Assembly: GCF_902769175.1 (NCBI RefSeq)
Contig: NZ_CACXNW010000019.1
Coordinates: 1-43,892, forward strand
Origin: an uncultured Methanobrevibacter sp.
Lineage (GTDB): Archaea; Methanobacteriota; Methanobacteria; Methanobacteriales; Methanobacteriaceae
Direction: 5' to 3'
Length of the DNA stretch: 43,892 nucleotides
The position numbers and the translations under genes were made by a program. Below the pieces are notes generated by a model that saw nothing but the letters and a program-made list of their open reading frames with translations, had not been told where the DNA came from and searched no databases. Of this stretch, positions 18,797 to 31,303 are shown piece by piece (positions within the stretch are counted from its first letter, which is position 1; the number at the start of each line of letters is the position of its first letter).

Positions 18797-19129
18797 GATT
18801 TATTCTATTTTCTTAATCTTTTTTAAAAATTTCTTTTTTTATTTTAAAATTTTATTAAATCATCATCAAATAAAATTATCAATCAACTTTAAAATGGCGG
18901 TCATGACTTAAAATACTTTATATATAAATTAAATAATTAGTTTTTTATACTATAAAAACTTAATAATATTATTCATTACTTAATGTATTTTTTTCAACTA
19001 AATGTTTTATTTTAAAGGATAATTCATTGGTTGATGGTATTTTCCTATTATGTTTTATTTTAAAGGATAATTCATTGGTTGATGGTATTTTCCTATTATG
19101 TTTTATTTAAAAAAGAATAATGTGTTATT
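18797..19129 (+). promoter_or_regulatory. Promoter and repeat-containing leader of the site-2 protease gene
   Basis: A good TATA element (TTTATATATAA, 18917-18927) lies about 200 bp upstream of the protease ATG. Any transcript from it would carry a long 5' leader that includes the 48-bp tandem repeat. No ORF of note is seen. Confidence 0.4.
19002..19108. repeat. 48-bp tandem repeat, 2 perfect copies plus a partial third
   Basis: Bases 19002-19049 and 19050-19097 are identical 48-bp units starting ATGTTTTATTTTAAAGG. A third begins at 19098 and diverges after about 11 bases. The last copy ends about 20 bp before the protease start codon, so the array would be transcribed as leader if the upstream TATA is used. 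Confidence 0.95.
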
Positions 19130-28355: not shown

Positions 28356-29502
28356 ATGCTAAAAATTAAACATACTATTTGTCCTTCTTGTTCTGTAGGT
28401 TGTGGGATAAATATTGTTTCAGGTGAGGGTAAAGTCTTGGGAACTTATCCTTACAAGAGACATCCGATTAATGAAGGAAAGAATTGTTTAAACGGTCGTG
28501 GTTCTGTTGAACAATTTGAAAATAGAATCTGCTCTCCTTCATTGGTTAAAAACAATGAATTAGTTGAATCAGATAATGAAACAGTTATAAATCTCATTAA
28601 AGAGAAATTAGGTTCCATTAATCCCTTGGATGAAGATGCAATGGATGATGTAATTGAAACGGATTAAAGAGAAATTAGGTTCCATTAATCCTGATGAACT
28701 TTGCATTCTTTGTTCTGGAAAAAACACAATCGAGGAATTAGAAGCTATAAAACAATTTGCTGAAGGTTATGGAACTGATAAAATAGGATTTTATGGATAT
28801 AATTTCCCTAATGATGATGTGGAAGTGGCATCCTATGATGATGTTTCCAATGCAAAAACAATTTTAGCTATTGGAGATATTTTAAGAGACAATCCTTTAA
28901 TTGGTAGAAGAGTAATCATTTTCAAGGAAAATGGCGGTACTCTTATTTCAGTAGACACTGTTGAAAAATCCAATACCCTATTAAATGCTACTGAATCTGT
29001 TAAAGTCGATTCAATCAGCGATTTTATTAGTGATATGGGAGATATAAAGGGTAAATTAGATGGTGACGCTGTAATATTAATCAATAAAATGGAAAATAAG
29101 GATGATTTTAATAGCTTAAAAGAATTGGCTGTTGAAACTGGTGCAAAATTACTTCCAGCATATAAACAAGCTAATATAAAAGGAGCTATGGGAATATTAA
29201 GCTCTTTGGATGCAGAAGAAATTAAGGAATTCCTTTCAGATTCTCAAGCACTTATCACTGTCAATGCAGATCCATTGGATTTCTTGTCTAAAGGTGATGT
29301 GAAAGGAAAATTCATAGTGAACATCTCTAACTTTGATAATGATTTCACAAAACTTTCCGACGTGGTGCTTCCAGGAAAACCATGGACTGAAAAATGCGGC
29401 AGCTTTATAAATGCAGAAGGCTTAAAACAAGAATTCATTTCCTCAGTATTTTCCGATGATGAAAATTTAAGTGAAATAGAAATATTTGAGAAACTTGCTT
29501 AA
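28356..29502 (+). pseudogene. Compact FdhA-like molybdopterin oxidoreductase family protein, frame broken between direct repeats
   Basis: The N-terminus is a textbook [4Fe-4S] motif of the formate dehydrogenase alpha family: C9-x2-C12-x3-C16-x27-C44. The C-terminal half has the Rossmann-like end of the domain ('KLSDVVLPGKPWTEKCGSFINAEG'). Most of the Mo/W catalytic region of a true FdhA (about 680 residues) is absent, so the protein is more like the short formate-dehydrogenase-like (Flp) proteins known next to mvh genes in Methanothermobacter. The first frame ends at TAA 28665-28667. A second frame runs from about 28654 to 29502. Removing the 67 bp between two 29-bp direct repeats would give one protein of 359 residues. 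An FdhB-like gene follows after 19 bp. Function: probable electron transfer, substrate unknown. Confidence 0.7.
28596..28691 (+). repeat. 29-bp direct repeats 67 bp apart inside the FdhA-like gene
   Basis: Bases 28596-28624 and 28663-28691 are identical (starting ATTAAAGAGAAATTAGG) and both encode KEKLGSINP. The 38 bp between them encode LDEDAMDDVIET. The offset of 67 bp is not a multiple of three, so the second copy is out of frame; deletion of one repeat plus the spacer restores the frame. Confidence 0.95.
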
Positions 29503-29521: not shown

Positions 29522-30676
29522 ATGAGTGAAAATTATGTTCTTGCAAAAAGTAGTGAAGCTGCAATAACTGAAAATGGGGCTTGTGGTGGTGCAGTAAGTT
29601 CTATTTTCCAATATTTGCTGGCTAATGATATTGTAGATGGTGTCTTGACCCTTTCAAAAGGAGAGGATGTCTATGACGGTATCCCTAGATTTGTCACTGA
29701 CCCTGCTGAAATTCTTGAAACCTGCGGTTCACTTCACTGTGCTCCAACTATGGTTGCAGACTTGGTTTCCAAGTATCTTTCAGATAAAAGAGTTGCTGTT
29801 GCAACAAAGCCATGTGATGCTAAGGGAATCAATGAGCTTGTAAAAAGACACAGAATAGATCCTGAAAAGATTATCACTGTTGGATTGAACTGTGGTGGTA
29901 CTGTTATTCCTGAAACAGCACAGCAAATGATAGAAAAATTCTATGATGTGGATCCTTCCAAAGTAGTTAAAGAGGAAATTGATAAAGGTCAATTCATCAT
30001 TGAACTTGAAGATGGAAGCGAAAAAGGCATTAAGATAGATGATTTAGAGGAACAAGGTTACGGTCGTCGTACCAATTGTCAAAGATGTAACTTAAAGGTC
30101 CCTCGTAATGCAGATATTGCTTGTGGTAAATGGGGTTCAGAACCTGGATGGACATTTATAGAAATCAATTCAGAAAAAGGTCAGGAAATTGTCGATGGTG
30201 CTAAATCCGAAGGATTCATTGAAACAAAAGGTCCTTCTGAAAAAGCTATTGAAATCAGATCAAAAGTTGAAGGCATCATGATTAAAATGGGTAAGAGATT
30301 CCAGAATACTCAGTTTGAAGACAATTACCTAAGTGCGGAAGAATGGAAAGAGCAATGGAATAAATGTATTAAATGCTTTGCCTGTAGAGATGTTTGTCCT
30401 ATTTGCTGGTGTAATGAATGTGAACTTGAAAAGGAATACTTCAAAGACAGTGAAGATTCAGCACCTGACCCATTAGGATTCCAAGGGGTAAGATTATCTC
30501 ACATGAGCTTTAGCTGTATTAATTGTGGTCAATGTGAAGATGTATGTCCTATGGAGATACCTGTCTCAAAGATTTACCATAAATTGCAATGTGTTTATAA
30601 CGATTTAACTGGATATGAAGCAGGTCTTGGTGATGAAAAGCCTCCATTATACAGTCCACAGAAAGAAAACTTTTAA
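29522..30676 (+). CDS. Coenzyme F420 hydrogenase/dehydrogenase beta subunit family protein (FdhB-like)
   Basis: The 384-residue protein belongs to the FrhB/FdhB family, which binds FAD and exchanges electrons with coenzyme F420. The N-terminal half has 'ACGGAVSSIFQYLL', 'CGSLHCAPTM', 'KPCDAKGINELVKRH' and 'GLNCGGT', all typical of FrhB/FdhB. A Cys cluster, 'GRRTNCQRCNLKVPRNADIACGKWG', follows. The C-terminus holds two ferredoxin-like [4Fe-4S] motifs (about residues 282-300 'CIKCFACRDVCPICWC' and about 336-345 'CINCGQCEDVCP'). Length is that of a full FdhB. It lies between the FdhA-like and MvhD-like genes with gaps of 19 and 15 bp, which indicates one operon. It could be the F420-facing part of an electron-transfer complex. 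Confidence 0.9.
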   Translation: MSENYVLAKSSEAAITENGACGGAVSSIFQYLLANDIVDGVLTLSKGEDVYDGIPRFVTDPAEILETCGSLHCAPTMVADLVSKYLSDKRVAVATKPCDAKGINELVKRHRIDPEKIITVGLNCGGTVIPETAQQMIEKFYDVDPSKVVKEEIDKGQFIIELEDGSEKGIKIDDLEEQGYGRRTNCQRCNLKVPRNADIACGKWGSEPGWTFIEINSEKGQEIVDGAKSEGFIETKGPSEKAIEIRSKVEGIMIKMGKRFQNTQFEDNYLSAEEWKEQWNKCIKCFACRDVCPICWCNECELEKEYFKDSEDSAPDPLGFQGVRLSHMSFSCINCGQCEDVCPMEIPVSKIYHKLQCVYNDLTGYEAGLGDEKPPLYSPQKENF

Positions 30677-31172: not shown

Positions 31173-31303
31173 TTTTCACTTATCTTTTAGGATAATTGTT
31201 AGATAAAACATTCTAGGTTTTCACTTATCTTTTAGGATAATTGTTAGATAAAACATTCTAGGTTTTCACTTATCTTCTAAGATAATAGTAAAGACAAAAC
31301 ATT
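31173..31303. repeat. 45-bp tandem repeat, about 2.9 copies
   Basis: Units begin at 31173, 31218 and 31263 with TTTTCACTTATCTTTTAGG. The first two are identical; the third has several substitutions and decays at its end. Each unit contains TTATCT...AGATAA, so each can form a small hairpin. It lies downstream of the MvhD-like gene. Confidence 0.95.

Follow-up and report, generated by a model that had tools for sequence, protein, structure and literature searches.

An FdhA-like gene of an uncultured Methanobrevibacter very probably broken by off-target spacer integration of its own type I-B CRISPR-Cas system

An FdhA-like gene at positions 28356 to 29502 of the window (the whole stretch of 43,892 nucleotides that was analysed) is interrupted by 67 bp. 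It was very probably broken by recent, large-scale integration of spacers off target, carried out by the type I-B Cas1-Cas2 of the organism itself. In the mechanism that we propose, the integrase would put a spacer-sized piece of DNA in the wrong place. One end of the piece would be joined to one strand and the other end to the opposite strand, on either side of a stretch of about 29-30 bp, and fill-in would then duplicate this stretch, just as the 30-bp CRISPR repeat is normally duplicated. Where the stretch lies within the FdhA-like coding sequence, the result would be a gain of 67 bp, a frameshift and a broken gene; within the 40% of the genome that was sampled, some two dozen sites would have been hit likewise. 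The evidence consists of an insertion with target duplication, a unit length equal to that of the CRISPR array, many dispersed units of the same build, their absence in relatives, and one detected cas1 beside the array.

The interrupted FdhA-like gene and its relatives

Two identical 29-bp copies (28596-28624 and 28663-28691, forward strand) are offset by 67 bp and enclose 38 unique bp (28625-28662). Allowing up to 3 mismatches, the 29-mer was found at two sites in the window, compared with 0 matches in 100 shuffles, and these two are its only sites in the entire genome assembly (3.12 Mb in 65 contigs, 88% complete). The first frame, starting at ATG 28356, encodes 103 residues with the C-terminal end ...INPLDEDAMDDVIETD and stops at TAA 28665-28667, within the second copy. 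When the 67 bp are removed, a frame of 359 residues from ATG 28356 (counted from coordinates), or of 361 residues from TTG 28350, is obtained. The first-pass annotation of this DNA had described the repeat structure, the offset, the frameshift and the restored 359-residue form, all of which we located as it claimed. Both gene pieces resemble molybdopterin oxidoreductases in Pfam, one matching the Fe4S4 domain and the other the C-terminal part. The N-terminal piece (28356-28624, forward strand; iron-sulphur/molybdopterin domain) ends with the first target copy and matches Molybdop_Fe4S4 (E 1.4e-16 on 28356-28622), and the C-terminal piece (28663-29502, forward strand; frame 28654-29502 from TTG) matches Molybdopterin (E 2.4e-10) and is out of frame with the former. 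As the 67 bp were added within coding sequence, the frame is shifted and the gene is broken. The next gene (29522-30676, forward strand), encoding an FdhB/FrhB-type F420 beta subunit, is intact (FrhB_FdhB_C, E 9.8e-42; FrhB_FdhB_N, E 2.9e-20).

The additional 67 bp are composed of 29 bp of the gene that were copied and 38 new bases. A plain 67-bp tandem duplication was ruled out by the low identity of the 38 bp to the two flanks (0.29 and 0.24). The earlier suggestion of a recent duplication that inactivated the gene thus holds for a recent inactivating event, in view of an intact paralogue and single-copy relatives, but not for a plain duplication. With up to 3 mismatches allowed, the 38-bp insert has no second copy in the genome assembly, which rules out at this threshold that it was copied from elsewhere in the genome, and a search of 137 further genomes of the family gave no match. 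Elsewhere in the window two stretches, of 48 and 45 bp, are duplicated exactly and in tandem with no insert (19002-19097 and 31173-31262), and similar pairs are frequent in the genome.

An intact paralogue of 358 residues is located on another contig of the same genome (C5), and a search of the genus with the FdhA-like gene gave matches in 10 of 19 genomes, its own included. For the paralogue, and for homologues in G001 (two), G005, G009, G018, G002 and G006, the alignment fell into two blocks whose coordinates in these sequences overlap by 22-40 bases; these sequences hence carry one target copy and no insert at this place. In G003, G007 and G013 the alignment blocks stop short of the insertion site, and the FdhA-like frames are intact. 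Frames were then compared for 62 records, of which 5 gave no hit and 57 were assessed, some of these being one gene from two collections. The frame reaches at least 320 residues in 54 of the 57; the shorter ones are those of the window (282), L203 (170) and L227 (282). The L203 homologue (L203:6001-7044) has 170 residues in the matched frame though the match covers the whole query, and no repeat is involved. An internal repeat of at least 18 bp was found in the window alone and in 0 of the 56 other homologous frames. The comparison with related genomes, which had been suggested as a check on a reversible switch, therefore revealed an interrupted FdhA-like form in none of the relatives examined, nearly all of them being intact. 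All three loci that were compared with relatives show empty sites, the uvrA site in five genomes (G001, G003, G013, G014 and G018) and the FtsX site in three (G005, G015 and G017).

Spacer-sized units and the CRISPR-Cas system

An insert with a target duplication of this size has the outline of one CRISPR repeat-spacer unit; an array was sought after this had been raised as a hypothesis. One cas1 was detected in the genome, within a full type I-B operon whose proteins match Cas6, Cas8b, Cas7b, Cas5b, Cas3b, Cas4b, Cas1b and Cas2b. The operon is adjoined by an array (C4:81973-100654) of 283 repeats of 30 nt, all of which (up to 3 mismatches) lie on a single strand. Start-to-start distances are 64-69 bp in 281 of 282 cases, most commonly 66, with 67 in 82 of 282. 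The unit at the FdhA-like site, 67 bp with a 29-bp duplication, fits both the array unit and the 30-nt repeat, and its 38-bp insert has the length of a spacer (10 of the 282 spacers in the main array measure 38-39 bp). The site itself does not qualify as a CRISPR array: its 29-mer has just two occurrences in the genome and no notable likeness to the repeat, so processing by Cas6 would not be expected. Judged by eye, the leader end of the main array resembles that of G013; a broken leader is thus not evident. The genome holds a second array (C20:44355-45100; L100:4355-5100) with a 37-nt repeat, for which no second cas1 was detected, and its units of 71-72 bp do not fit the dispersed ones.

Dispersed units were surveyed in 1.257 Mb, or 40% of the genome, in stretches that were mostly contig starts and not a random sample. 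The survey was planned as a background check with the array spacing already known; units were already visible in the first 457 kb, surveyed with the array masked, and the filters, which asked for an exact run, no more than two copies and a gap that differs from its flanks and which discarded low complexity, were chosen following this first look. Isolated pairs of 27-34 identical bp numbered 23 at spacings of 64-69 bp and 7 at the 65 remaining spacings between 40 and 110 taken together (p 2e-19 on the assumption of even spacings), which means 22 further units built like that in the FdhA-like gene. The mode of the duplication length over the 23 units is 30 bp, chance matches being able to lengthen runs. 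The mean unit length was 66.3 (22 units) versus 66.2 in the array (KS p 0.72), for units preselected from spacings 63-70 and with one 57-bp array unit left out. A relaxed scan (two mismatches in 28, stricter flanks) counted 16 pairs at spacings of 63-69 and 4 over the rest of the range between 40 and 110; only two of the 16 were new, at 63-66 bp. Most duplications are therefore free of mismatches, which points to recent events. Of the 23 units, two or three are open to doubt, namely C15:32738 with an insert that is mostly T, C12:50129 with a 34-bp repeat and a 31-bp gap in adhesin repeats, and C3:26509 with a 27-bp repeat; the first of these was excluded from the motif, target and length comparisons, for which 22 units were used. 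Three spacer-like units are found in about 540 bp at C5:21525-22065 (L069:1525-2065), a possible hot spot, and one unit lies about 420 bp past the leader end of the main array (C4:101072-101166; L037:2072-2166).

At spacings of 64-69 bp the same scan yielded no unit in the 1.575 Mb taken from relatives, in regular steps or from the starts of contigs, versus 28.8 expected at the rate of the interrupted genome. None was found in 400 kb of G003 (cas1 present), in 347 kb of G013 (cas1 present, near-identical repeat), in 396 kb of G016 (no cas1 match), or in 431 kb comprising 45 loci from related genomes, which are surroundings of FdhA-like genes and in part belong to the same species as the other genomes compared. 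The burst thus appears specific to this lineage rather than general among cells that have such a system, and the two relatives that bear cas1 but no units indicate that the system alone is insufficient.

The junction of cas3 and cas4 offers a lead. In the interrupted genome 193 bp separate the end of cas3 from the first conserved cas4 codon, two degenerate CRISPR repeats lie 67 bp apart between the two genes (C4:79992-80132; L034:845-985), and cas4 lacks its usual start codon. The cas4 of G013 overlaps the preceding long frame, which is cas3 by position; that of G003 and of G010 overlaps a preceding open frame to which no family was assigned. Translation from the next in-frame TTG of cas4 would leave out about 18 residues, among them a cysteine that we take to be a ligand of the iron-sulphur cluster. 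With the usual start missing and a TTG start of this kind, Cas4 may be weak or lost, a lead only, as a non-standard start is possible. The degenerate repeats could be a crRNA-like regulatory element of the CreA/CreR type, or a cause of weak Cas4; the spacer-like stretch between them gave only 10-11-base matches in the cas region. According to PMC13034035, cas4 of F. novicida is similarly annotated from a TTG 21 residues in.

Inserts, target sites and genes hit

All inserts but one (22 of 23) have no 20-mer in common with the rest of the sample, the remaining one being mostly T; the same applies to the array spacers (0 of 282 with a shared 20-mer), and no 14-mer is common to any insert and array spacer. 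The GC content was 0.307 for inserts, 0.369 for array spacers and 0.310 for the genome stretches, so composition does not mark the inserts as foreign. We infer that the inserts derive from viruses or plasmids, that Cas1-Cas2 was the agent and that a recent burst of loose integration took place. Exact and degenerate scans of viral contigs gave no protospacer for the insert at the FdhA-like site, and viral contigs gave none for one other insert. Compared with a phage collection, the former insert gave weak matches (best E 0.1 among the matches listed) and the array (17,028 of about 18,682 bases) no match. One contig, L265, agrees with that insert over 20 bases and diverges beyond them; the match, which lies in a reading frame encoding a repetitive protein, was taken as chance. 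The 5.6-kb contig C58 of the genome carries a Peptidase_C71-like gene (L180:1060-1869) that is 87% identical to one on an IMG/VR virus contig (L236/L237); this 34-kb contig has a terminase-like gene and is possibly from a virus of the organism's own group. Within the 18,232 of its 34,306 bases that were compared, inserts and array spacers match over at most 20 bases, mostly AT-rich, and a terminase search of the organism's genome found none.

Repeat-likeness was scored for the FdhA-like target only, and it was not notable: 13-18% of window sites score as well, or 4% for the two ends. In E. coli, off-target sites reportedly resemble the CRISPR repeat or the leader end; likeness of the target to the repeat is not treated here as defining off-target integration. 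A central TA step is present in 18 of 22 targets versus 35% of random sites, a pattern noticed after looking and the best, here stressed, of five short patterns tried at the target centres. The targets share a weak motif (information 10.95 versus 9.61, sd 0.37, in random sets, with equal starts for observed and random sets); 0 of 100 random sets were as high, the nearest reaching 10.90. There was no excess of dyads (z 0.5) and no clear excess of folding (z -1.7) at the targets.

Reading frames were compared with and without each unit for the 23 sites. At 14 of them, leaving out the unit either creates or lengthens a frame across the site, which then has 211-1523 residues; two of the 14, C5:9147 and C5:11094, are within a single frame. 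Three units stay open in frame (C9:241, C12:41985 and C15:32738), two (C5:21525 and C5:21972) lie in short frames beside a third unit, C5:21695, and four sites, the latter included, have no clear frame. Adhesin-like domains (Chlam_PMP, Big_3_5, DUF11) were found at seven sites, one weakly; the other families at broken sites are an FtsX permease, an MFS transporter, UvrA and the FdhA-like gene, and those at in-frame units are a KH-domain ATPase and a ClC channel. The family search gave no match at C5:9147/11094 (one piece searched), C1:116971 and C9:241. In our judgement the broken genes that can be named look dispensable, as is expected for mutations kept by living cells.

Other explanations, known systems and significance

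The repeat pair had initially been read as a possible reversible phase-variation switch, in which the loss of 67 bp, by slippage or by recombination of one 29-bp copy with the other, switches the gene on and the opposite step switches it off. The copies are perfect, direct, out of frame and closely spaced, direct repeats of this kind can be lost by slippage, and precise reversion of the pair is possible. Slippage, however, cannot regain a lost 38-bp insert, the short form is on no contig of the assembly, the other homologous frames have no such repeat, and the same build recurs at unrelated genes with unrelated targets and different inserts; a switch is accordingly very unlikely. An artefact of assembly or library, the other doubt raised at the outset, is just as unlikely. 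The genome is known from a 65-contig assembly and the repeat is close to common k-mer sizes, so that k-mer joins or chimeric reads come to mind, but the repeats vary from 27 to 34 bp while the unit length follows the array, and the inserts are not found elsewhere in the sample, nor the one at the FdhA-like site anywhere else in the assembly. Artefacts should moreover fall anywhere, whereas the broken genes that could be named look dispensable, and the relatives' assemblies, scanned over 1.575 Mb, have no units.

End-joining repair of staggered breaks that captured filler DNA, with no part for Cas1-Cas2, would likewise leave a short foreign insert between two copies of its target. It does not explain, however, why the unit should keep so closely to 64-69 bp, the length seen in the array, and there is very little chance that it accounts for the units. 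A small mobile element with target duplications of about 30 bp would explain the look of transposition that insertion and target duplication give, but the inserts have, bar one run of T, no 20-mer in common and hence no common element sequence, which makes such an element extremely improbable. Off-target integration by Cas1-Cas2 is the reading we prefer. It could be extended, tentatively and with less than even confidence, to a loosened type I-B adaptation complex that acts as a genome-wide insertional mutator. A possible cause would be loss of the usual cas4 start behind the extra ~190 bp with two degenerate CRISPR repeats; the genome would hold perhaps 50-60 dead 'spacers', as extrapolated from 23 in 40%; and surface, transport and repair genes, uvrA among them, may be knocked out, and slippage may revert each hit precisely.

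To our knowledge, spacers integrated off target have been described mostly under over-expression, with a small number of natural examples. Nivala, Shipman and Church (2018, Nat Microbiol) reportedly described non-canonical spacer integration and 'neo-CRISPR' loci, in which Cas1-Cas2 duplicates a repeat-sized target outside the array, mostly upon over-expression of the E. coli type I-E system and in a few putative natural cases (Yersinia pestis, Sulfolobus islandicus). The units described here share with these loci a probable Cas1-Cas2 spacer outside the array and the duplication of a repeat-sized target. They differ in that the system is type I-B, the host a natural archaeon with 23 units in 40% of its genome, coding genes are broken and the FdhA-like target is not clearly like the array repeat. 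PMC9456107 and PMC11788318 cite off-target integration by Nivala et al. 2018, and PMC8047081 describes ectopic spacer acquisition inside arrays, likewise a spacer at a wrong site; its sites are real CRISPR repeats in an array, whereas ordinary genes are hit here. Two papers report that Csa3a controls off-array integration in the type I-A system of Sulfolobus islandicus (PMC9456107) and that off-target integration is frequent for type V-C Cas1 (PMC13034035). According to both, Cas1 needs help to avoid off-array integration, and both concern subtypes other than I-B; the genome studied here would be a natural failure of this control. Stem-loop targets, proposed for Sulfolobus, are not clearly seen at our targets. 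Casposons, Cas1-driven transposons, resemble the units by a Cas1-type integrase and target duplication but are whole elements with terminal repeats, and here only short unrelated inserts are present. Off-target integration is thus already known; for this density in one natural genome no report was found in the literature covered by title and start of abstract, a scope outside which most subscription papers fall.

The immune system appears to act here as a natural mutagen that breaks the FdhA-like and other genes, and 23 units in 40% of a natural genome would show a real mutational cost of CRISPR adaptation. The units would provide a natural set of target sites from which to learn how Cas1-Cas2 chooses DNA without a leader, and make it testable how frequently gene knockouts or new CRISPR loci arise by misplaced spacers. 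For annotators, some pseudogenes with 64-69-bp insertions may be misplaced spacers. If a loosened adaptation complex is indeed a genome-wide mutator, the machinery that records immune memory would itself give rise to natural gene loss and to surface variation.
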